Part shown: positions 6,136 through 60,990 of the stretch, piece after piece | Layout: each line of letters starts with the position of its first letter | How positions within the stretch are numbered: the first letter of the stretch is position 1 | Source: Agarophyton chilense | Taxonomy: Eukaryota > Rhodophyta > Florideophyceae > Gracilariales > Gracilariaceae | NCBI GenBank assembly: GCA_030374765.1 | Contig: JARGXX010000117.1 | Span: forward strand, 1,240,001-1,304,000 | Length of the DNA: 64,000 nucleotides | Direction: 5' to 3' | Translations under genes and position numbers: made by a program | The notes under the pieces: generated by a model | Databases searched by the model: none | What the model was told of the DNA's origin: nothing | The model's input: the letters and a program-made list of their open reading frames with translations, nothing else

Positions 6136-6138
6136 ATT

Positions 6139-19420: not shown

Positions 19421-20770
19421 GAGGTGCACCAACAGTTGAACGATATGTTCACCAAAGCCGTTGATTTCAAGACTTATCGATTGATCAAAAAGTCTTCTGA
19501 ATACACCCAAGTGGTTTTTCAGAAGATTACTAAGCACCACAAGAAGCTCAGATTCCAAATGGGTGACACAACCGTCACAGGGACGGATCCTAATGCGGTG
19601 ATTGCGTTTGTACAGAAGTTCAAGCTTGCATGTGACCAAAATGGTTTTCCTGAGGGCGGTGCTATGTGGCTAATATGGAGCAAAACCCGGTGACGTGAAG
19701 TGCTCTCAAAGTGTTCGAAGCCTTGCCCCCTTGGGGAGGCAGACTCAGAGACAGAGCCCTCCGTTCCACCCGTAGTGTGGGGTGTAACTCCCACGGGGGA
19801 TTCCGGCAGTACCGACGGAGGTGAGGGGTAGAAACCGTTGGGTCGGGAATGGGTATGGGTATCCCAAAGAATGGGGGAAAATCCGGCGAAGAGGAAAAAC
19901 GGGGCGAGGGTCGGGCACTAACAGGCACCGGACCCGAGAACCAGAAAAGGGGCGAAACAACAAAAGAAACCCAATACAGGGGCGAAAACCTGTCCTCGAA
20001 AGGAAACACAAAAAGCACGTAACAAGTAAGCAGAACCCCCACGGGGTATCGTGCACGCAGGTCGTCTGAGCGGTCCCAAGGGGGTGGTTGCACGGAACCC
20101 AAACGTGGGCACTCTCCAAGTGGAGTCGTGTCCCTACGCAGGCATTGCTAACCAGAGCCCGTTCCGGGTTGTAAGGCCGAAACGATGGCGACGAAGAACC
20201 TCTAAAGGTATCGAAGACCAACCTTGGTTACCATTTACTCTGAGCTTCGGACTGTCAGATCTCGCCTCCCTAAGTAGGGCCCACTAACTAAACTCTACAG
20301 TAGTGCACACCTGCTCAGGGCCATACACGTGGAGATCCCACTGTCAGGGCCCAAAAGTCCAACGTTCTAACAAATATCCGAAAATCGGTGCCAAAATTAA
20401 GCCACGTGTATCACGGGGCCAATCCAACCATGGGCCATCCGAATTGTCACTTCATAGGCGAACTCTAACCAGAAAACAGTGCCACCTCAGCACACCTTAG
20501 AGGGAATCATAGTCCTAACCCTCGGAGGGTTCAATCCTCATTCTATGAGTTGCATCTTCAAGTATCCCCTAACTGGGCGTTGCTCTACAGCTAATTCATT
20601 TTTACCTTAAAATACAACCATACTACTTGCTGCACTGTAGGATCCGCGGCAATACCTTAGCGATGGAGGAGGATGGCATAGAGGTGTTGGAGTCATACCC
20701 AGAGGTGGTCAATTTTCTTTTGGAAACATACGCTACCGATGAGGTTATCCAAAAGGCTTACTCGGAAGTC
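19420..20770 (+). pseudogene. gag: Ty3/gypsy gag fragment split by a solo LTR and cut by E3
   Basis: The capsid-like sequence TGTDPNAVIAFVQKFKLACD is similar to GSDPIAVLRFLSLFHTACD in E6. The frame breaks at 19674 where the solo LTR begins. If the LTR and one copy of GCTAA are left out, the frame continues in phase at 20595 and reads on through SYPEVVNFLLETYATDEVIQ, again a gag capsid block (compare E4 and E6), until it meets the E3 LTR at 20771. Thus two later insertions are stacked on this older gag. Confidence 0.65.
19669..20594 (-). mobile_element. E2 solo LTR (916 bp) with 5-bp target duplication GCTAA
   Basis: The LTR occupies 19674-20589, flanked by GCTAA at 19669-19673 and 20590-20594. 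The ends are TATGGAGCAA and TTGCTCTACA, imperfect inverted repeats. A second copy of 913 bp lies at 51327-52239 with its own duplication. No gag-pol sequence lies between the ends, so this is a solo LTR left by recombination or a short non-autonomous element. Blocks shared with the E3 LTR suggest that its sense strand is minus. Two CACGTG boxes lie at 20326-20331 and 20403-20408. Confidence 0.85.
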
Positions 20771-21655
20771 TGTAGGACAACGCTTGGATCGGAGACACCA
20801 CGAAGATGTTCGGGATCTTCCTCTCTTGAGAGACACGCATTAGGCGGAGGAGACGCGTCCCAGCGGAGCACAGAAACAGAGCCACTCTGGATGGGCACGA
20901 CGAAGTCGGGTGTAAGACCGAGGCCAATCCGGCGGGATATTCCTAGAGCGTTTAGGTGAGCATGGCACAGTCCGGGGTGTGACCAATCCTAGGCGGAGCG
21001 GTACCACGGCGATTGTCGGAAAAGGAGCGAGGAAACACTCGTATGAGGGGGGCGAGCGGGGTGAGTGAGGCGGCGACTCACGTGAGCCAAAAAGGAGAAC
21101 AAGAGGAAAACGGGGGCGAAACCCTATACAGGGGTGAGACTACGACAAGTGTCGGCGATTAAATATGAACCCACGGTGGTGGTAGCACTCTGGTAGACAG
21201 AGGGGTGGATGAACTAACGTGCAACGGGCGCTCACGCAGTATGCGGTGAAGACGCGCCGAAGGCGAAAAGTTCAGAGCCAAGACTCCCTCCTTGGTCTCT
21301 TCCAAGAGGGTTTTTACTGGGGAGCAGTGCTCAACCTCCTAAGTAGTGTGGCGCGTGGCCCCTGACAGTGGGTGCGCGCCCGAAAAATAGACACTACATT
21401 GCAATAGCGTAGCTAAATAAATACTAAATAATACTAAATAATACTAACCATTAGGTACAATCTGGGCCACGTGTGGCACGCCTCGCACTCGAGCGTCGGC
21501 ATCCGTGCAGTCCACGTGTTCCACGAGTGTGCACTTCCGGTCCTAACCGGCCGTCAGCACGCAATAGCGGTATAGCTTGTCATAGGCCAAGCTAGTCCTC
21601 AAGCGAGCGAACTCTCTTAGTCCTGCGAAGAAACCTTGAAGGGCATTGTCATTCA
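20771..21655 (-). repeat. E3 3' LTR, 885 bp
   Basis: Aligned with the copy at 40971-41873. The low-coordinate end is TGTAGGACAACG, the high-coordinate end ATTGTCATTCA. Immediately beyond the high end is TATCCCCCTCCTT, a polypurine tract on the minus strand. Two CACGTG boxes lie at 21468-21473 and 21513-21518. An internal stretch of repeated AATACTAAATA lies near 21420-21450. Confidence 0.8.
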
Positions 21656-21669
21656 TATCCCCCTCCTTA
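21656..21669 (-). other. E3 polypurine tract
   Basis: The minus strand reads AAGGAGGGGGATA directly before the 3' LTR, a plus-strand priming site. Near-copies of this tract lie inside pol at about 37977-37990 and 34843-34855. Confidence 0.65.
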
Positions 21670-21690: not shown

Positions 21691-22678
21691 ATGGCGGGAA
21701 GGCAACAATCCAACCGGCATAAGAGCGAGCCGCGTAACGCGTCCAGCGACCACTCGACTGTCGAAGGCAGAGCTGCACAACCGAACGACAAACGCACCAG
21801 CGCGGTAACCACTCCTCGAACTTCAAGCGCTCCTCCGCATCGTACGCCTACTCCCCGCGACCACATCCCGATACCTCGGCGACCAGTACTCCCGATGAAC
21901 GGTGGTAATAATCCCCGCCAGGGTTACTTCTCCGGTTTCCATTCGGCTCCCCTTTCGCGGGGGAGTGCCTTGTCAACCGCGCCGAGCCGATCCCCGGGTC
22001 CCGTTGAAGCTTCAAGCCACATCACTCCTGCGGAGGACATCTGGCCTAGTTACGACGAACTCGTCGGGTTCAACCCGCGTCAACATGCGGCGATTCTCGG
22101 GAGAGCTCCGTGGTTCCATCCGACAGCGGTCTTTGACGAAGAACTCGTGGCGGCGTATGCTGATGGCAATGCGCGTCTCCCGGGTGAGCTGCAGGCTCTG
22201 ATCACCACTTCGTGGGACTGGCGACGCCGTGTTGCGGTTCTCATTCACGCGATTCTGCGCCGAAGGCGCGAGTCAGCGGAAAAGGCGCAATGTATATTCG
22301 TCCGCATCGGTTACTCACGGATCAGCTGGGCGAACTTCCAATACCCCATCCCCGATGAGTTCGGCTTCTACCTACGGATGTACCGGACTCAGGGTGAGAT
22401 CGGCTATTGTGACCGCCTTGCGGCGTTGGAAACTTACGCATGGCGCGGTCAACCGCGAGCGCGTCAAGAAGCGATCTGCAGGGTCCATCTGATCATTCGT
22501 GCCGAGTTCCGTCACCTTCGTCGTGAGTCCCGATATCGGTGGTTACAGAACTTCATCCGCGAGGAGCGTCGGGGCAGATCCCGCTTTGTGTTCCTTGTCC
22601 CTTATCAGAACACGAAGATAAACCGGATTAGTCCCTTCTATCAGTTCGGGCGATACGTTCCCCTGCCTGGGTGGTGGT
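21691..22678 (+). pseudogene. E3 antisense ORF, N-terminal part
   Basis: First part of a protein encoded opposite to gag-pol. The ATG at 21691 (MAGRQQSNRHKSEP) is chosen because the frame upstream to 21646 starts with TTG inside the LTR. About 110 Ser/Pro/Arg-rich residues come first, then a conserved core with AEDIWPSYDELVGFNPRQ, GRAPWFHPTAVFDEELV, RIGYSRISWANFQYPIP and VPYQNTKINRISPFYQFGRY. The homologue in E4 (minus strand) reads AQAPWFDPVAIRDDALI and VPYQMIEIDRIRWNARFGRY. I recognise no known domain. The frame is broken at 22679 by E4 and resumes at 32862 in phase. Confidence 0.8.
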
Positions 22679-23345
22679 TGTAGTATTCTACTATGTCGGG
22701 GAATCCGATGGGTTGGTTTTTCGCGAAGTCGCGGTTGGAACTCATAAGTGAGTGATGTCATCAAACTTGTGATATGAAACGACACACCGCGTAGGATGCC
22801 TAGAGGCAGAATGTCTTAGTGGGACACGTGGTATCACGAGTGGAGTGGCTTGCAACGGCGCATGTAGTGGCGATCCACGTGGCTGGTTTTACTACCCTTT
22901 GTAGCTAGACGTCCATTAGGGACCATACCCATACAGTGGTTTGGCTAAGTGGCTGACCACTGGGTATTATTTATGTATTTATTTGGGCACTCACCCTGGC
23001 ACACAGTATATAGTGTACCAGAGGTGAGCGCCGACTCCAAGTAAAGGAGACAACATGGGCATCATGACTGTTCTGTTCCTCGCTTAGGATTCCTTAACCG
23101 GAGATTCGGACGAGCTATAATAGATAGTCAGCCCCCAACCACTTCACGAGCCGTCTCGTACCTACGTTCCATCAACGTTTTACAGTTGCACTGTTCACCC
23201 TCGCTGGCGAGTAGTGGCCTTACACCCCACTTCCAGCTCACTGGTGTGGTAACTCTACCACCCCTTTTCTTTCACCGCAAGCGACCCATCGGCAGTCCGA
23301 ACGCTGTCGCAGGTGTCGGCTCTCTCCATTAGAGCGGATACTACA
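22679..23345 (+). repeat. E4 5' LTR, 667 bp
   Basis: Begins TGTAG, ends CTACA. Two CACGTG boxes at 22825-22830 and 22876-22881; the second is changed to CACATG in the 3' LTR. A TATTTATGTATTTATTT stretch at about 22966-22983 could hold the core promoter. Confidence 0.92.
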
Positions 23346-23348
23346 AGT

Positions 23349-23367
23349 TTTCTCCCGACTTAGAACC
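23349..23367 (+). other. E4 primer-binding site
   Basis: Shortly after the LTR the sequence reads TTCTCCCGACTTAGAACC. It shares TCTCCCGACTTAGAA with E1 and E3, but the expected TGG has become TT, so it may no longer be functional. Confidence 0.5.
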
Positions 23368-23568
23368 ACTGTGGTCAGCTGCACTGAACAATTCGTTCCT
23401 GGAACGTGGAATCGATATCGATACCTGGAAGAAGTGGAATCACTACAGTTATTGTTGATCTAACCATCTAACCACCTCCGGCAATTTCGGAATTCATCGT
23501 AGTAGAACACGTGGTCGAGAAGTCGAAGACACCATTTGGTTCGCACCTGGACTCAGGTTTGGTCTAGG

Positions 23569-25719
23569 ATGCCGAAGAACCGAAGCCAGTCGAGTACTGG
23601 TCGCCCCGGTCCTGCGAGACCACCCCCGAAACCGAGGCTCGCCTCATCTGTTGAAGCCGGAGAGCGGATGTATCGTCAAGCGATGTCGCGCTCACGCTCG
23701 GTGAATGATGAACGAGATCTCTCGGATGTACCGGCCCCTGGGGCAGCGGCAGTCACGTCCACTACAGAAGCCTTAGTTGACCCTGAGGTCGTCGGACCTC
23801 AAGAAGAGGATGATTTGCGCAGGGAAGTGCGTCGTCTCAAGTCTGAGTCAAGCGCTTCGTGGGTGCGCAAGGTTGCGTTGGAATCGCAGATCGCTGCTCT
23901 TATCGCTGATGTCGAACAATTACGCAGTGCGCATCAAGCACTCGTTCGTCAAGACGATGGGAAGCAGGTCTCTGCATCATTGAAAACACTACGTGAGTTT
24001 TTGAACCATCTACTGGAGAGGTATGGGAATACGCCCGATGCGCTACCCGGCTTAACCGTGGATGTAGAGGAAGTCCTCACTCGAGTTAACCCTCGTTTAA
24101 AACGCCTGGAGGCGGCAGTTCATGTGTAGACTGCTGCTAAACCAGTCGTGCTGGAAGAGGAAGGAGCTCCTTTGAAGGAAGCTCGTTCGAAGAATTCGAA
24201 GTCACGACGTAAGAAGCGGAAGTCCGCACGTGATTCGAGTGATGAATCTTCAAGTACGGAGGGTTTCAGTTCCAGTACTGATGATTCTGATGATTCAGAT
24301 ACGTCAGATGAAGACGACAGTGATGATGGTCATCGAAGGTCCCGATCTCGGAAGAAAAACACGTCTTCGTGGTTAATGAAAAAAAGGCTCACCTTACAGA
24401 AGATTGAAGGTGCTCCCGTGCACGAATCCGCTTTATCGGAAGGTCCTGAATTACAGGTACTACCGTTTGAACGTGAAGAGCAAGAAGCGCTCAGGACGCG
24501 AAACCGCGAAGGTGAAGGATCACATCTAACGATTGAAGATCGGCCTTAATGATTTAACATTTGATAGGAAAACCCCCATTCTCGTTATCCAGTTTCTCAA
24601 TCGATTCGTTGCCGAAGAAGACACTCTAGAGATGAGTGAACCACAGGCATTTGTGTCTTTACCACACTTCCTGAAGGGTTTTGCTTTACAGCAGTATCGT
24701 TCCGTATGCGGATCATTGACAGCCGATGAAGGCGGCGTTACCTCATGGCCAGAGGCGGTGCAGTATTTGCTGCGCAGTTACGCGACTTCAAACGCGATAC
24801 GTCAGGCGATCCTGGACCTAAGTGATGTGACCCAAAAGCCTGAGGAGGGTGAAGCTGAGTACAGCTCAAGGCTTAGCAAAGCTTCAGTCCGCTGTGGAAA
24901 TGTCCACTCGACGGAGGACAAGATTACCTTGTACATCGACGGGCTGGACCTGAGCATCAAGTCGTTGGTAGCTCGATATCGAGAGAAGCATGGAAGAGTA
25001 TCCTTTCTGGAGTTAGTTCAGTTTGCAAAAGCCGAAGGAGACGCGGCCAGAGCGCGTGGTAGCCCCCGTCGTTCAGTGGCCTTTGGAACCTCAATGGGTA
25101 AGGAGAAGATATCCCCCAGATTTAATCAGCGCAGCAAACTGCTACATCTGGAATCTCCAGTGCACTCACGAGATTCGTCGTTGGCCCCCAAAGGGAGTGA
25201 CTCGCATGAGGAGGGGGTCTATTTAATGGAATATACGGACTCTTCTGTACCTACTGTGGATCTCCCACACTCGGAGTCTCAGGACGAGGAAGCCCTAATG
25301 GCTATGGAGGCCCTCGTTCTATTTACCGTCCCTACACGGTGCCACCACAAGGAGGTTTTAAGAACGGGAAACCCGGATGGGTGGATACTCGCACGGCATA
25401 CCGTTCACAACCTATGTTGACCAACCGTCGTGACGGTTTGATCTGTTATTCATGTTATGGAAAACACCATTTGAGTGCAGAATGAACGCTTCCTGTAAAG
25501 GATCTGAGTCTTATCATGACGAATTATGAAGCACTCTCGGAAGAGGAAAGGAGCCGCATACCGACGGGCATGTATTGGAAAGCCAAAATTTGGTTTTCTC
25601 AGACACCAATGCGCCGGACGGATAAGCCGGTTGCTCAGAATGCTGAAGTGGTACAACCCAGAATCCCGGTAGGAAGAGGCGCCTTTGAGGCGAATAAGCC
25701 AGTGAAACCGAAAAACTAA
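23569..25719 (+). pseudogene. gag: E4 gag, with stop and frameshifts
   Basis: ATG at 23569 (MPKNRSQSSTGRPG). The frame stops at 24127 (TAG), continues in the same phase from 24148 through an acidic Ser/Asp-rich stretch, then shifts frame near 24540. The capsid region is in the second frame (VIQFLNRFVAEEDTLEM, TSWPEAVQYLLRSYATSNAI, KITLYIDGLDLSIKSLVARY). The knuckle CYSCYGKHHLSAE near 25450 has lost its last cysteine (C-x2-C-x4-H-x4 then a stop). The last part, NYEALSEEERSRIPTGMYW, returns to the first frame and ends at the TAA at 25717. Confidence 0.8.
25710..25716 (+). promoter_or_regulatory. E4 gag-pol -1 frameshift heptamer GAAAAAC
   Basis: The gag frame reads CCG AAA AAC TAA. The frame one base back is open from here into the protease ORF. 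This is the same heptamer, at the same distance from the stop, as in E3. Confidence 0.6.
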
Positions 25720-26816
25720 GTGAGGGAGCCCCTAGGGGATCGGCACTAGTCGATCCCGTAGTGCTGACCAGGAAGAGCTCGCTTCCCTGCTCCCACGCTT
25801 GGAAGCCCAAGATTCTCTTGAGGCCTCAGAACTTTCCGCCGGACGGAAAGCGAGTACAGTTTGACTGTGAGTTACATCGTCCTTGGAGACGTAATAATTG
25901 TCCGTCAAAGCGGGAAAGTTACCTCATGGTAGTGTCTAAAAGAAACTATAAGGTCTATGCCGACATCGGCTCTGACAGGAATCTGTTATCTCGCCGATTG
26001 ACTATCCTCGACACAGGTGCTGGTCCGAACTTTATACGGGAATCGGAGCTCGCTCCTGCTGACTTGGAACGTATTCGATACGGTCCTTCACCGGACATCC
26101 GGGATGCCAACAAAAATGCTGTGAAGACACTGGGAACAGTTCGACTCGTGGTGCGTTTGGGACGCTTTGTAGTCCTAGTCGACTTCATCGTCTGTAAGAG
26201 GTTAGCTGCACCAGTGGTATTGGGATGTGATTATTGCGACAAGTTGGTCGAAGCCATTCGCCCGCGAAGAAAACCAGTGGAACTAGATGATGGATCAATG
26301 GTACCAATTGTTCGCAAGCCAATGCGTCGTTGCTCTGAAGCACCTCCACTTCCACCATCTATGGAATACGGGAAATCCCGAGGAGGTGTCTCGCCGAGGA
26401 TTCGTGTAGCGAAGAGTGCCATGCTGAAGGCGCAAACTCAAACTTGGGTTCAAGTAAGAACAGAACGACACGGACTCGTGGTAATTCAACCGAACACTCG
26501 GATGTACGAATCCCGTGGATTGCTAGTCGCTATCGGCATTGTTCAGGTTGATCTTGGTAGCCTCTTTTGGATACTAGTGAGTGACTTCACCGATAACGAT
26601 TATCAGATACCGAAGAATCAGGTTGTTGCAACAGCTTTGCCTCATCCCACAGTGGTGGTCCCTACTCATATTTCTACTGCAGAAGTATTGGGATTAACCC
26701 ATGTCGGTGACACAGACGAAAAACTGCGAACTCCGTCTGGAGATCAATTGCAAACGGCAAAGGATCCAGAGAGTCTGGTCGATGAGCTAGACTTAGCACT
26801 TGTGTCGGAACACTAG
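25720..26816 (+). CDS. E4 aspartic protease region of pol
   Basis: Open in the -1 frame from the heptamer to 26816. It has KRNYKVYADIGSDRNLL, the active site TILDTGAGPNFIRES, and VVLGCDYCDKLVEAIRPRR. The C-terminal linker reads AEVLGLTHVGDTD. A TAG at 26814 separates it from the RT; in E3 these are continuous, so the stop is a mutation. Confidence 0.8.
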
Positions 26817-26834
26817 AGAGCGAAGATCAGGTCT

Positions 26835-27570
26835 ATGCTGAAGAAGTATACATCCATGTGGAGTGGAAAACTAGGAGAGATCTCTGCTACGGAACACCAC
26901 ATTGATTTGGTCCCAGGGTCACGACCCATCTCCGAACCACCCTACAGAGCGGGACGGCGAGCTCGCCAAATCGATGAGGAGAATGTCAGCAAAATGCTTG
27001 AAGAAGGAGTAATCGAAGCAGCTCAATCTGCTTGGGACTAACCAGTGGTGCTGGTTCCAAAACCTGATGGTTCTTTACAATTCTGTATCAATTATCGAAA
27101 ACTGAACGCAGTTACAGTTCGAGATACATACCCGTTGCCTCGAGTGGACGAATTTATAGACAGCTTAGGAGAAGCGAACGTGTTCACCACGTTGGACGCC
27201 GACTCTGGCTATTGGCAGGTGCCTGTAGCGGAAGAAGACCAAGATAAAACCGCATTTACGTGTCACGCCGGTCTCTACCGTTTCAAAAGGATTCCCTTTA
27301 GCTTAATGAATGCACCGGCTACTTTCCAGCGTACTCTGGACATCTTGCTCTCAAGATACAAGTGGAAGACTTGTTTAGTCTATTTGGACGATGTGATCAT
27401 CTTTTCCCAGGATGTGGAAAGCCATTTACGGCATGTCGAGGAGATCCTCCTGAGAAGAAGTATTCCGTTTCAGAAAAGGAATGCCTTGCAGTCGTTTGGG
27501 CTCTAACCACATTGCGACCGTATCTCCAGGGAGAACGTTTTACCGTCAACACGGATCATTCGTCTCTTTG
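26835..27570 (+). pseudogene. pol: E4 reverse transcriptase joined to RNase H remnant, internal deletion
   Basis: RT blocks TATEHHIDLVPGSRPIS-type, [35 protein letters not shown] and the intact catalytic [12 protein letters not shown] are present. One stop, TAA at 27039, lies in WD-stop-PVVL where relatives read WASPVVL. At about 27450 the sequence jumps from LRHVEEIL to [15 protein letters not shown], which in E1 and E3 lies in RNase H. The thumb, connection and start of RNase H (about 140 codons) are missing. RNase H remnants with further stops continue to about 27640. The element cannot make functional RT. Confidence 0.85.
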
Positions 27571-27646
27571 ATGGTTACTCTCCATCACAGACCCGTCTGG
27601 TCGTCTCACACGATGACGCTTACGCCTTTCTGAATTCGATTTCGAA

Positions 27647-29590
27647 GTGAAGTATAAGAACGGATTGGCCACTGTCCAAGCTGACGCGCTATCGCGACTC
27701 AAAACACTGGGCGAAACCCAAGGCGAAATCGATGAAAAGATACCTTGCTTCTACATGGAGACCCATTCACCATCCCTTGAAGAAGAGGAACAAGAGACCC
27801 TTGATGATTATTCGGATGCAGACCCATTCCTTGCATTAGCAGACACTGGCCCTTCAGTTCAACTCGAGCGAATCTCGTGCACTGAGCTCCTCAATGAGCA
27901 ACACGCCGATACGTTTTGTGCGTCGATACGCTCTCGTCTTAACGGGGGGGAGGAGCTCCCCTTTTCACTCGATTCTCGAGGAATACTGTTAGGACATGTC
28001 GAAAAGCATGATCAAATCGTGATTCCACACGTCTTGAAGAGTCGAGTACTCCATCTGGCACACTATAGCAGGCTGTCTGGTCATCCAGGAGGAACGAAGT
28101 TGTTCATGACTCTAAGAAGAGATTTTTACTGGCCTACTTTGGCAATGGACTGCCACGCTACAGTGAGGTTGTGTACAACATGTGCGAAGAATCGCGTGAA
28201 GCTTTACAGGAAGCGGAAACCGATGACGTTATTCCAGGCGAAAGCGCCTTTACAATACGCCAGTATCGACATCCTAGGGGAATTGATTCGCTCAAGGCGA
28301 GGTTATCGCTACCTATTGGTAATCACCAACCGCTTCTCGAAGCTAGTGCGGACTGTGCCGCTGAAGCGGATAACCACTACCCTAATCGCACAGGCGTTTA
28401 TCAAAAATTGGGTATTTATATACGGACCACCAGAACTTCTGTTATCAGATAATGGGAAGCAATTCGTTGTGAAGTTCTTTCAGAGTGTTTGCCGCATTAT
28501 GGGCATTCGAAACGTGTTTACCACGACCTATCATCCGCAATGCAACGGTCAGGTGGAGCGTTTCAACCGCACGCTGATAGCAGCACTACGACACTACATC
28601 GCGGACCACCCGAAAGAATGGGACATGTTTACAGATACTCTGTGCTACGCGTACAATACGCAAGTGCATACCTCTAAAAAGACGGCACCGTTAGACCTCG
28701 TGCTCTCACGTAACCCTGCGGCTTTACCGGTTGCGCTCGACGACGAGACAGAATTGGACGCGCCAACCCCGGCTAAGTACCATCTGAAATGGAGGAATGA
28801 CCTGAAGGCCAGAGCGGAAGAAGCCGCTAAAGAGATATTGAGGACGCAAGCTCGCTACAAGCGAAACTGTGACGCCAGAAGGCGAAGAGGAAATCCGGCA
28901 ATCCGAGTAGGAGGTCACGTCTTCGTGCCAGTCGAAAGACCTGACAAACAGGAAGAATCGCGTCATAAGTTGTTGCCGATAGCGGCTGGACCTTTCAAAG
29001 TGGTGGACCTTGATGAAGACACGGTGGTCATCAAGACAGGTGAAAACGTTGAACGTGTATCGCGCGATTGCGTTGAAGTCGCGCCTGACCCGCAAGTGAA
29101 AGTCCAGGTATCTGGTAGAACTAAGGAGGCAAGTGCGACGGAACGTCAAGGCAAAAGCCCTAGTGACTCTGGGGAGAGTGAACCGCCACCAATGGCTCGA
29201 GCGGAGGAGAAAGCTCCTGATCTCCCACCGCCGGCGGTTGTGTACGCCAATCACGGACAGCTTCCGAAATATCGGGATATGTCCCGTGGCACGCGCACAC
29301 CTGTAAGTACAGAAATGGAACATGAAAGCAGGAAATATGTTTTGGAATTTAACCCCAAGGACTTGGAAACGAGTGCACGCGAAAACGCGCCTTTGCCGCT
29401 TCAGGCTGAACCTTCAGGTGAAGCGCCACTCGCTGTTCCGCCGATATCGGCTCCCATCCCTCGTGGGCAGGAAGAAGAAGAGGTATCGCCTCCTGTTGTG
29501 GTGCAAGCACCAGCGTCCACCGAACAGCGGTCAGAATCGGATAAACCGAAGGAAGTTCATCCACGAATGGAATTGAGAAGTAGCAAGTAG
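27647..29590 (+). CDS. pol: E4 RNase H end and integrase
   Basis: 647 codons open. It begins with the RNase H end (QADALSRLKTL). The zinc-binding HHCC domain reads LAHYSRLSGHPGG then RLCTTCAKN. The catalytic core has D in YASIDILGELIRS, D in LLLSDNGKQF and E in NGQVERFNRTL, the complete DDE triad. A Pro/Glu-rich tail of about 180 residues follows. Integrase inserts the cDNA copy into chromosomes. This is the best preserved gene of E4; the chromodomain is in the next ORF, in the same direction. Confidence 0.88.
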   Translation: MKYKNGLATVQADALSRLKTLGETQGEIDEKIPCFYMETHSPSLEEEEQETLDDYSDADPFLALADTGPSVQLERISCTELLNEQHADTFCASIRSRLNGGEELPFSLDSRGILLGHVEKHDQIVIPHVLKSRVLHLAHYSRLSGHPGGTKLFMTLRRDFYWPTLAMDCHATVRLCTTCAKNRVKLYRKRKPMTLFQAKAPLQYASIDILGELIRSRRGYRYLLVITNRFSKLVRTVPLKRITTTLIAQAFIKNWVFIYGPPELLLSDNGKQFVVKFFQSVCRIMGIRNVFTTTYHPQCNGQVERFNRTLIAALRHYIADHPKEWDMFTDTLCYAYNTQVHTSKKTAPLDLVLSRNPAALPVALDDETELDAPTPAKYHLKWRNDLKARAEEAAKEILRTQARYKRNCDARRRRGNPAIRVGGHVFVPVERPDKQEESRHKLLPIAAGPFKVVDLDEDTVVIKTGENVERVSRDCVEVAPDPQVKVQVSGRTKEASATERQGKSPSDSGESEPPPMARAEEKAPDLPPPAVVYANHGQLPKYRDMSRGTRTPVSTEMEHESRKYVLEFNPKDLETSARENAPLPLQAEPSGEAPLAVPPISAPIPRGQEEEEVSPPVVVQAPASTEQRSESDKPKEVHPRMELRSSK

Positions 29591-29599
29591 TACGCTTCT

Positions 29600-30037
29600 A
29601 TGGAACCTGTAAAACAGGATAGCTCTTTATCTGAGAAAGGTTCTCAAGGAATAAGTACACTGCCCCTGCGGGCAGAACGACAGTTAGTCGACGAGCGAAC
29701 GCTTAGCGACGCTGAGACTGCTAACACAGAGACGCTAGGGTCAGCCCTAAGGCACTTCAAACCTGCTAACAGGAGTCTCGCGCCAACAGCGAAAGCATTG
29801 GGAAACGCCCAGGAATATGTTATGGATCGCACATGTGAAAATGGCGAGCATGAAGATACTAGAGAATTACTGTATCGAGTCCGTTGGTATGGTTTTCCTC
29901 CGGAATCGGATAAGTGGGAACCTATAGCTCATATCCCCCGTTCGCAACCCGTGGGATATCATCGACGCATGCAATTACCACTCCCCAGAGAGATCGACTC
30001 CTCGATAGTCGGGCTCATGGGCACATCCCATTTCTAA
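29600..30037 (+). CDS. E4 chromodomain-containing C-terminus of pol
   Basis: 145 codons. The C-terminal half, EYVMDRTCENGEHEDTRELL followed by YRVRWYGFPPESDKWEP, is a chromodomain, with the aromatic residues that bind methyl-lysine mostly present. A TAG at 29588 separates it from integrase, probably a mutation or a junction tolerated by readthrough. Confidence 0.8.
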   Translation: MEPVKQDSSLSEKGSQGISTLPLRAERQLVDERTLSDAETANTETLGSALRHFKPANRSLAPTAKALGNAQEYVMDRTCENGEHEDTRELLYRVRWYGFPPESDKWEPIAHIPRSQPVGYHRRMQLPLPREIDSSIVGLMGTSHF

Positions 30038-30054
30038 GTATGGGCTGCAAAGGT

Positions 30055-30255
30055 AGTAAAAACTCGAAAGGCGAGAAGAATACAAGAAGTCATGTGGAAG
30101 AAAAGTGAAAACACGCAAGCACAGGACATTTACTGATTATTACCTAGGACAAACTCATGAAGCGAGAAGAAGGATTGAAGAACTCGAGAAGCGAGAAGAA
30201 GAACTTATGAACTCGAGAAGCGAGAAGAGATGAAGACTAGAAGATAAGAAGGGAA
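30055..30255 (+). repeat. Purine-rich repeat between E4 pol and its antisense ORF
   Basis: The unit AACTCGAGAAGCGAGAAGA occurs twice near 30180 and 30210, with a variant AACTCGAAAGGCGAGAAGA near 30060. It lies where two opposing coding regions end, so it may hold their 3' ends. Confidence 0.6.
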
Positions 30256-30573
30256 CGTGAAGACACGAAGTCACCGGAGTTTTATTGGTATCAAGATACC
30301 ACCGCAAGGGTGTTGACTAGGAGTCTTTTCTAGGATCATCAAAGAGACGTGCGAGCACGCAGGTTCGCAAGAAGCTGTGCGCAATCACCCTCAACTTGGT
30401 CCACGGGAAAGCCCGCATCTAAGAGGAACTGTCTCAGCGGATCCAAGCCTGGATCTTTGACCGACACTGCACTCAGTTGTTGGGTAAACCCATGAAATTC
30501 CTCTCGAGCAACTCCCGCCGCTGCGGATTGATCGACAGAAGTCGCTACCCCTTGCCAGCTCTGGCTCGTCCTC

Positions 30574-32022
30574 TTAACCGAGTTCAGCCTCAGCTCCCGG
30601 CGTTTTCTCATACGGTTCCTCTCCGTTCTCGAATGGAGTACCATCGTACACGTATCTAGTAAGCTGGTTCGGTGGCATGTCACGCGGGTTATCCCGAAGA
30701 AAGCGAGCCTGCTCGGAGGTGATGAACTGGCGCGTCCAGGGGTCGTACCAAACGAAATCTCCAGCACTTGCTGTTCGTCCAGGAGAATATTCGTAGTGTC
30801 TTGCACGGGTTATGCGAGCAGATTGATCAGCTGGCACTCCAGACCAATCGACACTGTCGATCAAATCCACAAGATGGAGGAAGTCGGCATGGTTCGCACG
30901 GGATCCCAGGACAAGGGAAAGATCGAGTTCTCTCGCATACTTTCGCGCTGTGGGCGACATGTACCAAACTCTAGAGGTATCATAAGCATCCCACAGGAGG
31001 AAGACGGCCATCTTGGCGATAAACTCGGTATAAACCACCGTCCAATATCCTGAGAACGGGTCGTTAACCAACGCCGACCCGATGTAGGAGATCGCCGGTG
31101 GGAGCTCCCCAGGGCAACCACGAGAACTCTCGATCCCCGCCCAATGCTCCGGAATACCGATGTAGCGCCCGAAGCGCGCGTTCCACCGGATGCGGTCAAT
31201 CTCGATCATTTGATACGGCACCAAATAGCCCAAACGTGATCGAGTACGACGTTCCCAACAGGGATAATCCCAATAGGGAATGTCACGCTTTCGAAGGAAG
31301 CGGAACTCCGCATGGAGAAGAGGTTGCTGAAAGCAGAGAGCTACATCACGCACACCGCGCACACCGCGCCAACCGCTGACATCGACTTCAACCAGTGTCT
31401 CGATATACGAGTAACCTTCACCGTCGGTACGGGCTTTCCAGGTATCTAGTTACCAGTCCTGCGGGAGGAGAACCGTACTGATGAATCGGTGAAGACGCTG
31501 GCAAATCAGCTTGGTGAACCGCGTACGGGCTTCAGACAAGGTTTCCGTTGAATATCGCGCAATCGCGTTGTCAGGCAAAGCAATATGGCTCGTCCAGTCG
31601 CCGCTATAAATCGCGTGTTCCGGAATACCGTCAGGGACGTACCCACCGTGTACATACTATTGTATCAACGCGTCATCGCGGATAGCAACTGGATCAAACC
31701 AGGGCGCTTGCGCGAAAAGTTCAACGTTGTCGAGAGGATCTCGTCCATAGAAATCCGCAGGGTGCGGGTAGCTCCGCTGAGCACGACGAGAAGGAGCTCG
31801 AATCACACCCGCAGAGGCGACTTAAGCCGCGTTCGGCATCGGAGCCACGGTTGGCTGAGGTAACGGTACCGACCGGAATCCGGTGTACGGTATGGGAAAC
31901 GAACGGTATGGACCGAGTTGAGCAGTAGGCTGCGACAGAGAACCAGCAATGTTGGACGGAGCCCCACAAGGCACATCCTTAGAGGAGGGTTGAAACGGGT
32001 TGGATCCGGCGTTCGGATCCAT
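30574..32022 (-). pseudogene. E4 antisense ORF, homologue of the E3 antisense protein
   Basis: On the minus strand, starting at an ATG at 32022 (MDPNAGSNPFQPSSKD), one phase runs through to 30574 with three in-frame stops, near 31833, 31663 and 31447. It matches the E3 protein along its length: APWFDPVAIRDDALI, VPYQMIEIDRIRWNARFGRY, then GELPPAISYIGSALVNDPFS, LLWDAYDTSRVWYMSP and YSPGRTASAGDFVWYDPWTR. The N-terminus is Ser/Pro rich in both. A further frame to 30339 may be a shifted C-terminus. The ORF starts near the polypurine tract, so an antisense promoter in the 3' LTR could drive it. Function unknown. Confidence 0.8.
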
Positions 32023-32178
32023 CGCGATAGATCGAGCTGAAGAGCGGTGAGGAAGAGAATGCTGTTGAGAACTGTAAGAGTTGGTCGGGTGGCGAGGAAT
32101 TCTTGTGACGATGAGTACCCGGAACACCGGTCCGACTGCTTATAAACGCTTCTTGCGTCCCCCATGGTTCGCGCTTAA

Positions 32179-32189
32179 CGAGGGGGGTA
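32179..32189 (+). other. E4 polypurine tract
   Basis: The sequence CGAGGGGGGTA ends exactly where the 3' LTR begins with TGTAG, confirming the LTR edge and the plus orientation. Confidence 0.8.
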
Positions 32190-32856
32190 TGTAGTATTCT
32201 ACTATGTCGGGGAATCCGATATGTTGGTTTTTCGCGAAGTCGCGGTTGGAACTCATAAGTGAGTGATGTCATCAAACTTGTGATATGAAACGACACACCG
32301 CGTAGGATGCCTAGAGGCAGAATGTCTTAGTGGGACACGTGGTGTCACGAGTGGAGTGGCTTGCAACGGCGCATGTAGTGGCGATCCACATGGCTGGCTT
32401 TACTACCCTTTGTAGCTAGACGTCCATTAGGGACCGTACCCATACAGTGGTTTGGCTAAGTGGCTGACCACTGGGTATTATTTACATATTTATTTGGGCG
32501 CTCACCCTGTTACACAGTATACAGTGTACCAAAGGTGAGCGCTGAATCCAAGTAAAGGAGACAACATGGGCATCATGACTGTTCTGTTCCTCGTTTAGGA
32601 TTCCTTAACCGGAGATCCGGACGAGCTATAATAGATAGTCAGCCCCCAACCACTTCACGAGCCGTCTCGTACCTACGTTCCATCAACGTTTTACAGTTGC
32701 ACTGTTCACCCTCGCTGGCGAGTAGTGGCCTTACACCCCACTTCCAGCTCGCTGGTGTGGTAACTCTACCACCCCTTTTCTTTCACCGCAAGCGACCCAT
32801 CGGCAGTCCGAACGCTGTCGCAGGTTTCTCCTCTGTCCATTAGAGCGGATGCTACA
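32190..32856 (+). repeat. E4 3' LTR, 667 bp
   Basis: Direct repeat of 22679-23345, same length, about 25 substitutions. One CACGTG remains at 32336-32341. Confidence 0.92.
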
Positions 32857-33742
32857 GTGCTCCTCCGTCGAGGTGTGCCGGGGATATTACGTGGAGTTGC
32901 CTCCAGTCATCTCCTATCTGGGCTCGTACCTCATCGAGGATCCGCACTCCTGCTTATGTTCCGTGGTCCTAAGCGAATGGGCAGTTCGCGCCGCGGCGTA
33001 CATCTTGTGGGAAGCCTACGACCAGTATCGACTGTGGTATCTTCCTCCGCGTTTGCGTGGTTACATCCGGCAGCTGGATCTTCAACTCCCTCTTGGAGGT
33101 GTCAATAACGCTGATGAAGCTCAGGAGCCCATCGACATCATTTGGCGTGTCGACTGGGCTGTCGTGCCTGTCCGGCAGAGCGGCCGTGGTCAAGAAGCCC
33201 GTGGGGCTGATCGGTCTCCGGGGCGTCGCACGCCGTTGGCGGGAGATTTCATCTTCTCTAACGCATGGGAGCAGCAAGAGATCTCCGAGGCGGAGGCGTC
33301 GGCACTCCGGATGGCTCCTCGAGTCATACCATACGGGCACCCCGTGGGGTTTGTCAACTCGGATGACTTCTTCTACGCCTATTGCGGTGATGATCTCCGG
33401 GAGGAGGGGGGCGAATACCGTGACGACGAGGTCATGGAAGTAGTTGGAGATCCCGATGGTGCCGATACTATGGCGCAGCCGGCGCAGGGAGCGACTCACG
33501 CAGGTGCGGTCATCGATTGCGTGGCGGCGGCGTTGCCGCACGAACCGGAAGTTATCGAGGTTCCCATACGCCCAGAGGCGGTCGTGATCTGCCAGTTCCT
33601 TCGGGGTGTTGTACTGAACGCGCAAGCGGCAAGCGGTGGCATCGGTGCGATGAGAGACGCCCTCGTGGCACGCCTGACCGTCGGGAATAACTCCGCTAGC
33701 GATTCGGTTGGCGCGCACGGCAATCCGGGTTCTTCCAACTAA
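32857..33742 (+). pseudogene. E3 antisense ORF, C-terminal part
   Basis: Continuation of the frame cut at 22678. Bases 32857-32861 are the target duplication. Joining 21691-22678 to 32862-33742 gives 1869 nt, exactly 623 codons including the stop, with no internal stop. The conserved segments are VELPPVISYLGSYLIEDPHS, YILWEAYDQYRLWYLPP, RSPGRRTPLAGDFIFSNAWE; each has a counterpart in E4. The C-terminal 100 residues are acidic then Ala/Gly rich and not conserved with E4. Confidence 0.8.
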
Positions 33743-34020: not shown

Positions 34021-37005
34021 CACCTTTGACCGAGGTAGGTGCTCTATCGGTTCGTCTGAATTTCATTCGGGGCTGTACCCGTACCAACAGACCAAGTATT
34101 GGATATACCCTTCTGGGTGGTAGGAGTGCTCCAAAATGCGTCCGATCACGAACTGTTGTCGGTACACTTCCCGGCCATCCCGTTTGACGGTGTCACTATT
34201 TACGGGTGGTACCCGTCCTGAGCCAGGGGGTACCGAAGTGATCACGCGTTGGGCGGCTTCGCTCCGGTCGGACCGTGTAGCGCGCAAGGCAGTCCTCGGC
34301 TGAGTAGAATGTCGACCCGAGCTCGGCGGTTCATTTTCCACAAGTACTGGGCTTGTTTCGGTGCTTCCCACTACGGTTGGAGGGCCCACAGCAGCGGGTA
34401 ACCAGGGTGGTCGTTCCGCTAATCGGCGTGGTGAAGCTCGCTTCGGCGGTGAGATTCGCTGGGGCGGTGGCGCATTGTCGCACATCTCTGTCCCACGGTG
34501 AGGTTCCGTGTAGTCATGTGAGCGTTCCAATGGCTGGCTGTCCGGCGTCGGCGCCGTGGATGTATCCGCCTCCCTGTGCGGGGTACTTGGCGCTGCGTCG
34601 TCCACTCGTACTGTATCAGGCTGCGATGCGTCGAGCGCATTTGAATTCCGTGTTGCACATGTGGTGACACCTCCGCGAGTGTTGGTGGCGTTATCCGCGG
34701 CTGCGGTCTGAGGCTTGGATAGCGACTGCGTCGAATCGTGCAGGACGTCAGTATCAGGCACCCCTGATGGGCGAAGAATGACACGCGACGGTGCACCGTG
34801 TCCAGCGACGGCATCGACCGGATTACAACGGCTGTCGGGCGCCTCCCCCTCTTTAGACGATGCACCGGGGTTGATGTCCGTCGGGTGGACTGGGGAGGAG
34901 CGACGAATGCGCGACACGATTCCTTGCGGGTTGGGCGCCGCGGGTAGCAGAAGGTCAGACAAACCCCGAGATGGGTGTGGTAACACGTAGGGACGCGGGT
35001 GGACCTGGGGTAAGGGGGTCGATGTATCCGTTTCAACGGGAGAAGTCACACCAGTAGGTTGGGATTTTAACGGCGGAGGAGCCGATACCACGCGATCGCA
35101 GGAGATGCGTTCGTGATTACCAGCGAGGTCAACAACGACACTGTCGGGAGCCACCGAAATAACCAGAACGGGGCCGTCGGCAACGGGTGACAGCTTGTGG
35201 CGTTTCTCCTTCTCTGGGTTCCAATACTCCTTGCGGATGAATACATAACCGTCGGGGGCGAGACGTGGCGGCGAGCTAGGGGCTTTGGTATCAAATTCAC
35301 GCTTGTAAGCGGCCTGGGCTCGGCCCATCGAATGCCGTGCCGCGGGAACGAACTTCGTGAGCCAAGTTTTCCACGCTTCGCGGTAAGCAGTCGGTGACGG
35401 AAAGGTATCCAGCGTGGGCTGTGGTTCCAGCGCCACGGGCGGTGGGGTACGGGATAGTACCAGCTCGAAGGGCGTTAATCCAGTTGTCCTGTGCACCTGC
35501 GTATTATACGCAAAGGTGAGCGCATCAGTGAACAAGTCCCAATCTTTGGGGTGGTCTGCAACGTATGAACGGAGTGTCGCAAGTATTGTCCGGTTGAACC
35601 GTTCGGCCTGCCCATTAGTTTGGGGGTGGTAAGTGGTCGTGAACAGGTTCTTTATGTCCAAGATGCGACACACATCCTCGAAGAAACGAGAGGGGAACTG
35701 TCTCCCATTATCGGAGAGGAGGTTGAGCGGTGGGCCGTAGACGAAGACCGAGTGTAGGACGAAGGCTTGAGCCACGCTCATAGCGGAGATCTTCCGTAAC
35801 GGTACGGTCCGGACGAGCTTGGAGAAGCGATCCGTAATTACGAGTAAGAACTTGTAATTCCGCTTAGTGGTGAGGAAGGGACCGAGTATATCGATGGCCA
35901 CAAACTCCAATGGATCGCGAGCTGGAAACAGCTTCAACTTCGTCGCATAACGGCGGAGTTGGACACGGTTCCGAGCGCAATCGGTACAAAACCGCACCGT
36001 TGCGTAGCAGTCCACTGCCATGGCAGGCCAGTAGAAGTTACGGCGTAGGGTGAGGTAAAGTTTCCGTCCCTCGACGTGGCCACTCTGTTTGGAGTAGTGC
36101 GACATCCGCAATACTCTCGACTGGAGGTTATGTGGTACCACGATTTGTGGGTGCGATCCGAAGGTCCGTACAAGGTATCTGGCGCCATTCACCTGAAAGG
36201 GGAGAGTACCTCCTCCATTGAGTTGAGCGCGAACCTTCGCGCAGAACGGGTCAGCGAATTGCTCCCGTATCATCTCCTCCGTAGTAATAGGCACCAAGTT
36301 CCCTGGTAAGGGTTTCTCGGAATCTTCCGAGAGAAAAAAGTCGTCCAATTCGGAACCAGAATCTGAAGAGTCCGTGTCTCGTTCCTCGTCCTCGATGGTA
36401 GCGTCGTCGCCATTCACTGCAAAGCAGGGTATTTCATCGTCTTTGAAGGGTAGTGCTTCGCCAATAGTGACTAGGCGGGAGAGAGCATCGGCTTGGGTGT
36501 TGCACGATCCTTTTCGGTACTGTACGTCAAAATCAAATTCCGCTAGACGGAGACGCCAACGCATCAAGCGGCCTGAAGGCTCCGAGATGGAGAGTAGCCA
36601 TCGAAGTGAAGCGTGGTCCGTAAAGACGGTGAAATGATTACCCATGAGATAGAGACGCAACGTTTGTAATGCCCACACTACTGCAAGGCATTCCTTCTCC
36701 GAGACGGAGTAATTCTTCTCGTGGACGTTCAGCGATCGGGACCAGTACCCTACGGGGCGTCTTTCCCCATTGGGTGCAGTTTGAAACAGTGCACAACCTA
36801 CTTGAAAGTCGCTGGCGTCCGTATCTACGGTGAAGGGCCTTCCAGGCTTGGGCAACGAGAGGAGCGGGGCGGAGACGACAGAATCCTAAAGAGAGTTGAA
36901 AGATTCTGTTTGAACGGGGGTGAAGGGGTCCAGTTTTGTTTGTTGGCCTTTCCGCAAAAGCGCGTTTAACGGTGCAGCCTTGTCCGCAAAGTGCGGGATG
37001 AATCG
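34020..37005 (-). pseudogene. pol: E3 RNase H, integrase and chromodomain
   Basis: In phase with the RT ORF upstream. RNase H has FTVDTDASDFQVGCALFQ, FTDHASLRWLL and QADALSRL. Integrase has MSHYSKQSGHVEGRK with RFCTDCARN (HHCC), D in AIDILGPFL, D in LLSDNGRQF and E in NGQAERFNRTI. A long Ser/Pro/Thr-rich tail follows, then a chromodomain (YRQQFVIGRILEHSYHPEGY, CWYGYSPE). Stops interrupt the frame at 36886-36888 (TAG) and at 34063-34065 (TGA, where E1 has a Cys codon), with EPIEHLPRSKVV continuing afterwards. The 930-codon stretch between the stops is intact. Confidence 0.88.
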
Positions 37006-38958
37006 TCAGTAGACGTTCGCGAGTCCCAGAAAGGGACGAAGCTCGGTTTGTGTCCGAGGTTCTTTAGCCTCTTTGAGTGACTTAACACGAGTATCCTCGA
37101 TTGGACGTCCTGGACGGATAACATGGCCGAGATACTTCACGGTGTTTGTGAAGAAGTCACATTTCTTCAACTTAAGAGTGACACCCGCATCTCGTAGCGT
37201 GGTCATGATATCCCTCACATGAGTGATATGTTTGTCCAGATTATCTGAGAAGACGATTATGTCATCCAGGTAGACTAGGCAGGTACGCCATTTGAAGCGG
37301 GCCAATAGGATCTCGATGGCTCGCTGGAAAGTAGCGAGGGCGTTGGTAAGACCAAAAAGCATCCGTTTGAAACGGTAGAGACCGGAGTTACAGGCGAAAG
37401 CGGTTTTGTCCTGGTCTTGCTTCCTTACCGGAACTTGCCAGTATCTCCAATTGGCGTCCAGGGTTGTGAAGACGGTGGCGGTGCCCAGCCATTCAATGTA
37501 CTCGTCCATTCTTGGGATTGGATACACGTCCTTGACGGTGACGGCATTCAACCGACGGTAGTCGACGCAAAACCTCCAGGAACCATCCTGCTTTGGAGCT
37601 AGTACTACTGGAGAAGCCCACGGCCACTGAGCCGGTTCAATGACTCCTGCTCGAAGCATTTTATCCACTTGTGCCTTTTTCTCCGCGCGTGCGGCGGGTC
37701 CGGCACGGTATGGGTGCTGAGAGATGGGTCGGGTGTCCGGTAGCAAATCAATCCGGTGTTCCGTAGTGGCAATCTTACCAAGGGAGCCGTCCCACATAGT
37801 GGTGAAGTCCCTTAAAAGTTCTCGCAATCGATGGCTGCATGACTCCGGGACGTGGCTGAGATTCAGGTCCTCGAGTTCTTGGACTGGATCGGGGCGGTCA
37901 CCACTCGTTGAAACGGGCTGCGTCCCTGATATTACAGGTTGAACCCCGGGTACCGGCGATGAAACGGGTTCCGGGCTGTCCCCCTCCTTAGAGTGAACGA
38001 GTCCGAGAACGTCAGCTGCGGTCAGCTTTGTCGGCATCATAGCGATGGGGTGCGGCATGACGGACCCTATCACTTGGTTCTCCACCAGATACTGGGGTAC
38101 AGTCCCTAGATTGGCGATCAGCACGTGAAACGGTTGGTTTGGCTCCACATGGACGATTCCATTCGCAATTGCGAGGCTGTGCCTTTCATACACTGACGAC
38201 AATAGTTGAAAGACCCGGAGTCCGTGTTGACGGGAGGTTACTTTCACCATCATTTGGGACTCAGGTGTGACGCACAACGACGCTGCGACGCGGAGAGTAT
38301 TAGATTCACGGTTATCCGGTCTAGGTTCCTGTGCTGCCGGTAGCGGGACATGCTTCTTCGTGGTACGCCTAAGCGGACGACGAACGATTGGAGTGGACGA
38401 TCCATCCTCCATCTCGACATGCCGTAGGCTGGGGAAGATCACTTCGACGAAGCGGTCGCAAAAGTCGCAACCCAAGATGACTGGGGCGACTAATTTTCGA
38501 CATACGACGAAGTCGAGTTTCACCACGCGAGCGCCAACGCGGACTACCAGTTCTATGAACCCCACCGTATCCAACGGTTTGTTGTTCGCGTCAGCGACCT
38601 CCGGGACGTGGTCACGGCGGATCCTAGACTGCATAGCAGGCGGTAACACTTCCTTCACGACAAAGTTCGGACCGGCACCGGTGTCTAAGACGGTAAGGTA
38701 TCGCACCATAAACTGGGGTGAAAGGCCAAGGTCAGCATAGACTTTGTAGTTTCTCTTGGCCATCACCAGAACTCTATCCGTGAACCGGTTATGGGAAACA
38801 CGTTTCCACGGACGACGCAGAACACTAAAGTGTTCCGAGTTCACGTCATTGACGGCCTCTTTCCTTGAGAGGATTTTGACCGGGGAGCTAGGCTTGGACG
38901 CCTCGGGCGCCGTCGACCTCGACTCTGAGGGCGCCCCTCCTTGAGAGGAGACTCCCAC
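37006..38958 (-). CDS. pol: E3 protease-reverse transcriptase
   Basis: One frame of 650 codons. Protease active site YLTVLDTGAGPNFVVKEV; then ILGCDFCDRFVEVIF. The linker DVLGLVHSKEGDSPEP is encoded by a purine tract like the terminal polypurine tract. RT has the canonical blocks and intact CLVYLDDIIVFSDN. A TGA at 37006 ends the frame within FLGLANVY, where relatives continue RRFIPSF, so it is a nonsense change. Expressed only as a -1 fusion to gag, as judged from the heptamer at 38964. Confidence 0.88.
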   Translation of the reverse strand: MGVSSQGGAPSESRSTAPEASKPSSPVKILSRKEAVNDVNSEHFSVLRRPWKRVSHNRFTDRVLVMAKRNYKVYADLGLSPQFMVRYLTVLDTGAGPNFVVKEVLPPAMQSRIRRDHVPEVADANNKPLDTVGFIELVVRVGARVVKLDFVVCRKLVAPVILGCDFCDRFVEVIFPSLRHVEMEDGSSTPIVRRPLRRTTKKHVPLPAAQEPRPDNRESNTLRVAASLCVTPESQMMVKVTSRQHGLRVFQLLSSVYERHSLAIANGIVHVEPNQPFHVLIANLGTVPQYLVENQVIGSVMPHPIAMMPTKLTAADVLGLVHSKEGDSPEPVSSPVPGVQPVISGTQPVSTSGDRPDPVQELEDLNLSHVPESCSHRLRELLRDFTTMWDGSLGKIATTEHRIDLLPDTRPISQHPYRAGPAARAEKKAQVDKMLRAGVIEPAQWPWASPVVLAPKQDGSWRFCVDYRRLNAVTVKDVYPIPRMDEYIEWLGTATVFTTLDANWRYWQVPVRKQDQDKTAFACNSGLYRFKRMLFGLTNALATFQRAIEILLARFKWRTCLVYLDDIIVFSDNLDKHITHVRDIMTTLRDAGVTLKLKKCDFFTNTVKYLGHVIRPGRPIEDTRVKSLKEAKEPRTQTELRPFLGLANVY

Positions 38959-38960
38959 AT

Positions 38961-40967: not shown

Positions 40968-40970
40968 GTT

Positions 40971-60985: not shown

Positions 60986-60990
60986 AGCCA

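Follow-up and report, generated by a model that had tools for sequence, protein, structure and literature searches.

An antisense gene between pol and the 3' long terminal repeat of chromoviruses in the red alga Agarophyton chilense

An antisense gene in two nested elements

The DNA analysed here is a stretch of 64,000 nucleotides (nt) of Agarophyton chilense, called the window throughout (assembly GCA_030374765.1, contig JARGXX010000117.1; C117:1240001-1304000 in the 80-Mb, 135-contig genome that was searched). It holds two nested long terminal repeat (LTR) retrotransposons, E3 on the minus strand and, inserted within E3, E4 on the plus strand. Each carries, between the chromodomain and the 3' LTR, an open reading frame (ORF) that runs antisense to gag-pol, as had been claimed in an earlier, sequence-only reading of this DNA; that position is confirmed in both elements, with the correction that both window copies of the ORF are interrupted. 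The antisense ORF of E3 and E4 is a genuine gene in the place so described, conserved in frame and present in many copies.

In E3, the antisense gene begins with an ATG at 21691 (context GTCGACATGG), ends with a stop at 33742 and lies in two plus-strand pieces because E4 is inserted in mid-gene. The two pieces are each 87% identical to the product of an intact copy, L005, the first to its residues 1-346 and the second to residues 347-639. In E4, a homology span from 32174 to 30342 has its first antisense ATG at 32165; the stretch from 31449 to 30577 stays open (291 amino acids (aa)), and stops are found in the stretch upstream of it. A later ATG, at about 32.02 kb, is the start in database models of E4 relatives (P0010). 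The first in-frame antisense ATG is separated from the 3' LTR by 35 nt in E3, 24 nt in E4 and about 47 nt in E1, a third family whose LTR edge was set by BLAST only, and a polypurine tract lies between the 3' LTR and the antisense ATG where this was read, in E3 and E4. The same placement between pol and the 3' LTR is seen for E1 at loci L061 and L062; in a fourth family, F4 (locus L074), the ORF is antisense and downstream of pol, with the edge of the 3' LTR unplaced. The longest frame found in 300 dinucleotide shuffles was 357 aa for E3 and 282 aa for E4, and the intact genomic copies have 639 and 611 aa.

The elements are chromoviruses, with a Ty3/gypsy pol that ends in a chromodomain, above the Pfam cut-off in one E3 copy. 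The Chromo score exceeds that cut-off (25.1 bits) only in copy L063 of E3 (28.6 bits) and falls below it in E4 (24.8 bits), E1 (21.7 bits) and the E3 copy of the window (13.1 bits). Other Pfam domains are gag in E4, reverse transcriptase in E1, RNase H in E1, E3 and F4, and integrase in E3 and E4.

The antisense protein is roughly 560-640 aa long. Alignment of 16 members reveals 14 invariant columns (six arginines; also E, L, A, F, G, P, Y, W and D), all of them within a core of about 280 residues that is rich in aromatic residues (W, Y and F together 13-16% in the four families). The N-terminal parts contain 21-31% Ser/Pro and have an isoelectric point (pI) of about 10 in three of the four families, and the tail, with a short helix-like end, has a pI of 4.2-4.4 in all four. 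The sequence-only reading had listed the motifs APWF-H/D-P, FGRY, ELPP-x-ISY-x-GS, A-Y-D-x-x-R-x-W-Y and SPGR-x-x-x-AGDF, a Ser/Pro-rich N-terminus and a core that could be placed in no known domain. The motifs and the Ser/Pro-rich N-terminus are present, and profile searches of Pfam, NCBIfam (a prokaryotic library and thus a weak test for a red-algal protein) and PDB likewise left the core unplaced.

Several candidate relationships were rejected. The best PDB profile matches had E values of 1.4 and 2.4, at chance level for a known fold, and alignment of the antisense profile to four gag pieces by hhalign gave a probability of 0.1 (of 100) and E 0.44, which removes gag as a source. At the C-terminus, an Ish1/SAP-like domain was suggested by P0016 alone of 11 distinct fragments (Ish1, E 0.0023-0.0034, under the cut-off) and DUF6127 by two of the 11 (E 0.036-0.077), with nothing in the remaining fragments; a C-terminal profile of 12 fragments had its best PDB match at E 0.021 over 22 positions of an unrelated-looking protein. 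A core helix resembled the peripheral-subunit-binding (E3_binding) domain at E 0.1-0.25 in whole proteins and at E 0.0073-0.0091 in two of three short fragments, under the cut-off and confined to E4-type members in both cases. We do not believe the Ish1 and E3_binding hints.

Conservation, families and descent

In terms of reading frame, the comparison covered E1, E3 and E4, and conservation among these is clearly highest in the antisense frame. Between E1 and E3 it aligns with 46% identity over 629 aa (507 bits), compared with 295 bits for the frame that shares its third positions and 153 bits for the in-register sense frame with a long ORF; the antisense frame scores 275 vs 123 bits between E3 and E4, and 238 vs 147 bits between E1 and E4. 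In all six pairs of the four families, identity is lowest at the third codon position; the E1/E3 core, for example, has values of 0.71, 0.77 and 0.36 at positions 1, 2 and 3. Together with the shuffles, this antisense-frame conservation between families rules out a chance ORF or a shadow ORF.

Selection within families was investigated by sorting changes by the number of copies that share them, with a real copy as the reference, in 30 E3, 30 E4 and 7 E1 loci (best BLAST piece per copy; alignment columns with <60% of copies excluded). Changes seen in a single copy, which should be mostly decay after insertion, gave dN/dS ratios (omega) of 0.95 (E3), 0.94 (E4) and 0.82 (E1). In E3, changes present in at least 3 of the 30 copies comprised 59 nonsynonymous and 63 synonymous changes (omega 0.46, p 1.8e-5). 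Other results weigh against the view that the protein is under selection in all of the families. In E4, changes shared by at least 3 copies (56 nonsynonymous, 29 synonymous) gave a non-significant omega of 0.79 (p 0.34), and the seven E1 copies gave no signal (11 nonsynonymous and 4 synonymous changes at 3 copies or more, omega 1.24; total given as 16). Low values were likewise obtained for the frame sharing third positions (E3 0.52, p 5.6e-4; E4 0.62, p 0.038), in E4 even lower than for the antisense frame (0.62 vs 0.79), and the E3 signal weakens to p 0.03 without CpG sites and to p 0.055 at 5 copies or more. The E3 pol linker, intended as a positive control, had an omega of 1.12 for shared changes in 27 copies and is therefore no control. 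The earlier suggestion that copies be compared by dN/dS thus bears out the gene in E3 and not in E4 or E1: within-family selection is significant for E3 only, and the case for the other families is the conservation between families, which sits in the antisense codon frame and speaks against random overlapping frames.

The sequence-only reading had described the protein in two chromoviruses; it is in E3 and E4 as stated, and also in E1 and F4, at least four families in all. The E3 query region has at least 150 genomic matches and the E4 query at least 134. Since the copy lists were ranked by score, intact copies are over-represented among those fetched: four of 30 E3 loci have uninterrupted frames of at least 600 aa (639, 658, 613 and 609 aa), and five of 30 E4 loci have the full 611-aa frame. 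E1, with its gag-pol taking up the first 7 kb of the window on the minus strand (1..7001), has at least 72 antisense-gene matches, and 49 of the 72 listed are stop-free over the match. The Gracilariopsis protein P0003 led to F4; it has at least 77 matches at 41-44% identity, 54 of the 77 listed being stop-free over the match. A single F4 copy (L074, 640 aa) was read, and an F4 pol match adjoins 29 of the 77 listed antisense copies; the remaining matches were assigned to F4 by similar frame length alone, P0003 being about equally close to E1, E3 and F4.

Pairwise identities of the antisense protein range from 34 to 46% over 390-632 aa (E3/F4 and E1/F4 42%, E4 to the others 34-37%). In a four-point bootstrap on simple distances, the grouping of E1 with E3 and of F4 with E4 was recovered in 989 of 1000 replicates for the protease and in 1000 of 1000 for the antisense protein; a short reverse transcriptase segment left it undecided (521/1000). 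Because protease and antisense-protein distances group alike, the sequences suggest that the gene was acquired a single time, ahead of the divergence of the four families, and then inherited by each.

Database searches, each scoring 8000 candidates, returned at least 19 homologues, and the named ones are all from Gracilariaceae (Gracilariopsis chorda, Gracilaria domingensis and A. chilense). Among the A. chilense database proteins, P0007 is 91% identical to the E3 product and P0010-P0013 are 78-90% identical to the E4 product. Family members are recorded as hypothetical or unnamed proteins (BWQ96_03215, BWQ96_10156, BWQ96_05177, FGB62_50g12 and several A. chilense proteins); for annotation, such proteins thus stand as hypothetical proteins in red-algal gene sets.

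The antisense gene is also present at many places where integrase is lost. No integrase match was found in the fetched E1 and F4 copies, and in the pol of E1 (window 1-5598) and of F4 (L074) RNase H is followed directly by the post-integrase linker. A query across the E1 junction matches ungapped in at least 33 places (34 with one partial match); in other E1 copies a distance of 1.27-1.30 kb separates its halves (14 pairs), and the longest frame reaches 1419 aa in integrase-less copies vs 1847 aa in the gapped siblings. From this gap and these frame lengths we infer that integrase-bearing E1 siblings exist. The corresponding F4 query has at least 26 spanning places, and its halves are adjacent (-14 to +1 nt) in 16 of 16 pairs, so that no integrase-bearing F4 copy was seen among these pairs, 108 right-half rows being partly unpaired. 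When E1 places were paired with the 72 listed antisense matches, 24 of the 33 integrase-less places had one on the proper side and strand (18 of the 24 stop-free), as did 26 of the first 65 integrase-bearing places (15 of the 26 stop-free); for F4, an antisense copy among the 77 listed accompanies seven of the 26 spanning places. The retention of the gene at such places hints at a cis-acting function, but it may be no more than a passenger in young copies.

Possible working and alternative explanations

The arrangement itself is already known. Antisense additional ORFs between pol and the 3' LTR, termed aORF-3R, have been described in Grande (gene23), RIRE2, Retand (ORF4) and PvRetro13 and in the fungal element Boty (PMC7264820), and the arrangement is also found in the part of PMC11963269 that was consulted; the sequence-only reading had aptly named Grande1 as a precedent. 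For Grande gene23, an antisense promoter of its own and a nuclear location of the product are reported; no antisense gene of a retrotransposon has an established function, and Transposase_28 (PF04195) occurs in 97% of clusters of Retand, a non-chromovirus (PMC7264820). Like the plant and fungal aORF-3R, the red-algal gene is antisense to gag-pol, lies between pol and the 3' LTR, is multi-copy and is conserved between families; the known ones are present in most copies of a family, and here the gene is multi-copy among the matches listed. Unlike Retand, the red-algal elements have a chromodomain and, unlike Retand ORF4, their antisense protein belongs to no Pfam family; Transposase_28 was not found by a Pfam scan of 13 family members and three window pieces. 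No grass proteins were among the homologues found in the database searches.

In human T-cell leukaemia viruses, the antisense genes HBZ (HTLV-1) and APH-2 (HTLV-2) lie close to the 3' LTR and have an antisense promoter in that LTR; retroviral antisense proteins of this kind are also mentioned in PMC7264820 and PMC11963269. The red-algal gene is like them in its nearness to the 3' LTR and probably in having an LTR promoter. Unlike HBZ, it encodes no bZIP domain detectable in the same Pfam scans and its protein is much longer; no relation is claimed. Compared with other chromoviruses, the elements differ in having an extra antisense gene and, for one E1 sub-family and for F4 as far as copies were seen, in lacking integrase. 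By its title, a study of bdelloid rotifers offers a further likeness, in LTR elements with captured extra ORFs common to several element types (PMC5408684).

A search of titles and the beginnings of abstracts, whose coverage leaves out most subscription journals, turned up no work on antisense genes of red-algal retrotransposons; a term search of PMC6317226 found no mention, and the consulted parts of PMC12502185 and PMC6338049 contain nothing on antisense genes. Both the family of proteins and its occurrence in red-algal chromoviruses appear to be new. Antisense genes beside the 3' LTR are known in flowering plants, in one fungus and in a few retroviruses, and a poorly understood arrangement thus becomes testable in a distant branch of life. 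A small algal genome with high copy number, intact copies, four families and integrase-less relatives makes its role directly testable, and would also show the arrangement recurring at a great distance from land plants, with a protein that bears no recognisable relation to Transposase_28.

The best explanation as a whole, to which we give a probability of about one half, is that an accessory gene was acquired once, is transcribed from an antisense LTR promoter and encodes a nuclear regulator. Antisense RNA would begin at a promoter inside the 3' LTR; a promoter in the LTR or beyond is likely because the ATG lies only 24-47 nt from the LTR edge in E1, E3 and E4. The RNA would be translated into the protein of roughly 560-640 aa, which may act in the nucleus to regulate the element through transcription, silencing or the handling of RNA or complementary DNA (cDNA), in a mode like that of the Grande GENE23 product or HTLV-1 HBZ. 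In addition to the limits of the selection signal given above, further points count against this explanation. Inspection by eye of the short LTR stretches that were read showed no obvious antisense TATA box; the Pfam, NCBIfam and PDB searches identified no nuclear signal, nor any domain or fold above the cut-off; the N-terminus of F4 is acidic rather than basic; and the nuclear regulatory role is our best guess, made by analogy. The roles named earlier (control of transposition, silencing suppression, RNA transport) are likewise speculation. A bolder version, which we hold tentatively and think somewhat doubtful, is that red-algal chromoviruses independently evolved a retrovirus-like antisense regulatory gene with an undescribed core domain, which would act preferentially on its own element and hence be kept in integrase-less sub-families that borrow integrase from relatives.

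Somewhat less probable, and the most probable of the alternatives, is the notion that the gene is real and that its protein serves the particle as a structural or replication helper, or assists nuclear import of cDNA, or is an env- or movement-like protein. Consistent with it, the gene is kept in the E1 sub-family and F4, without an integrase domain in the copies seen, where the protein may work with its own RNA or cDNA while integrase is supplied by relatives, and the core is aromatic-rich with many invariant arginines. Particle proteins, however, normally come from sense RNA, so that a separate antisense mRNA would suit a regulator better, and the retention may reflect passenger status in young copies.

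An origin in an algal virus, with the protein suppressing host silencing in trans for the element, is distinctly unlikely. No host or named viral relatives were found in the database and viral-contig searches, and the protein evolves fast (46% identity between E1 and E3 vs 79% for the reverse transcriptase segment), both as this origin would have it; yet a search of viral contigs gave 13 pattern matches, of which 0 were confirmed.

It is improbable that the antisense RNA itself acts, by pairing with genomic RNA in small-RNA silencing or regulation, and that the ORF is incidental. By geometry, the antisense mRNA would be complementary to about 2 kb of genomic RNA, and such a role has been discussed for plant elements (PMC7264820). 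Self-pairing, though, has no need of a protein conserved in one frame across families and genera with third positions the freest, and RNA action as the sole function is largely refuted.

Slightly more improbable still is that each family separately captured a host gene, a possibility raised with the sequence-only reading and argued against by several observations. Uncharacterised Gracilariaceae genome proteins do match, but these may be elements annotated as genes. Host genes were found neither in the database searches nor, among the matches listed, in the genome; the divergent queries P0003 and P0005 gave only repeated copies at 37-44% identity, with no closer host-like match among those listed. 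Orientation and the place after pol are alike in the copies read from all four families, and separate captures are made less likely by the family grouping that protease and antisense protein share.

The remaining alternative, that the real gene is the overlapping sense-strand ORF and the antisense frame its shadow, is dismissed as very improbable: this ORF is long (283 aa in E3, 32969-33820 minus; 411 aa in E1), and several E3 copies have it, but it lies in exact codon register with the antisense gene, its omega for shared changes in E3 is 1.29, and its conservation between E1 and E3 is low (153 bits vs 507 for the antisense frame).

Element layout and neighbouring features

The two LTRs of E3 are 90.7% alike and those of E4 about 96% alike by self-BLAST, the edges of the latter having been set from their TGTAGT...TACA ends; E4 is flanked by a likely 5-bp target-site repeat, GTGGT/GTGCT, with one mismatch. 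Features of the three elements are collected in Table 1.

Table 1. Features of elements E3, E4 and E1 (positions in the window unless marked otherwise)
Feature	Positions	Strand	Basis
E3 antisense gene, N-terminal part (Ser/Pro-rich N-terminus, first half of core)	21691..22678	+	ORF 21640-22683
E3 antisense gene, C-terminal part (remaining half of core, acidic tail and a short motif at the C-terminus)	32857..33742	+	ORF 32726-33742
E4 antisense gene, broken by frameshifts and in-frame stop(s)	30342..32174	-	tblastn with intact copy L039, three pieces
E3 3' LTR	20767..21655	-	self-BLAST pair with 40967-41873, edge read in sequence
E3 polypurine tract, between LTR and antisense ATG	21656..21668	-	sequence, by eye
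E3 pol: RNase H, integrase, chromodomain	34066..36885	-	Pfam
E3 pol: protease and reverse transcriptase region	37006..38997	-	ORF; homology to E1 reverse transcriptase
E3 5' LTR	40967..41873	-	self-BLAST
E4 5' LTR	22679..23345	+	self-BLAST, edges read
E4 gag	24530..25420	+	Retrotrans_gag PF03732, E 5.4e-8
E4 pol: integrase (RNase H end by homology)	27617..29590	+	Pfam Integrase_H2C2 and rve; homology
E4 chromodomain ORF	29591..30037	+	Pfam 24.8 bits, cut-off 25.1
E4 polypurine tract	32180..32189	+	sequence, by eye
E4 3' LTR	32190..32856	+	self-BLAST, edges read
E1 chromodomain	1-1056	-	Pfam 21.7 bits
E1 pol without integrase	1057-2970	-	
E1 gag-like ORF	3904-5598	-	
E1 5' LTR	about 6139-7001	-	
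E1 antisense ORF, 616 aa	genome C117:1237772-1239619, just beyond window edge		

To the left of the window on C117, locus L061 holds two E1 copies head to head (4361-6934 and 7427-10000) in a near-perfect palindrome, whose arms are 99.7% alike over at least 2.57 kb and meet within the 3' LTR; the cause is either recent duplication in inverted orientation or faulty assembly. A fifth Ty3/gypsy element, more distantly related, has left remains at 58617-62376 on the plus strand, with a reverse transcriptase 53-58% identical to those of E1 and E4. No antisense homologue was found in this fragment up to the window end, beyond which its 3' end lies.

E3 and E4 are flanked by a long repeat pair (19676-20590 and 51329-52240, 96.4% alike, ~31.7 kb apart), and a stretch resembling these repeats at the protein level was seen by eye at L074 7442-7999. 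Also by eye, a Copia-like element occupies 50687-56209, with repeats at 50687-50906 and 55989-56209 enclosing long minus-strand ORFs. Two further minus-strand ORFs, of 882 aa (8839-11487) and 1003 aa (43280-46291), look related and have motifs in common by eye, for example MYHSNL..TNLAIEGE.

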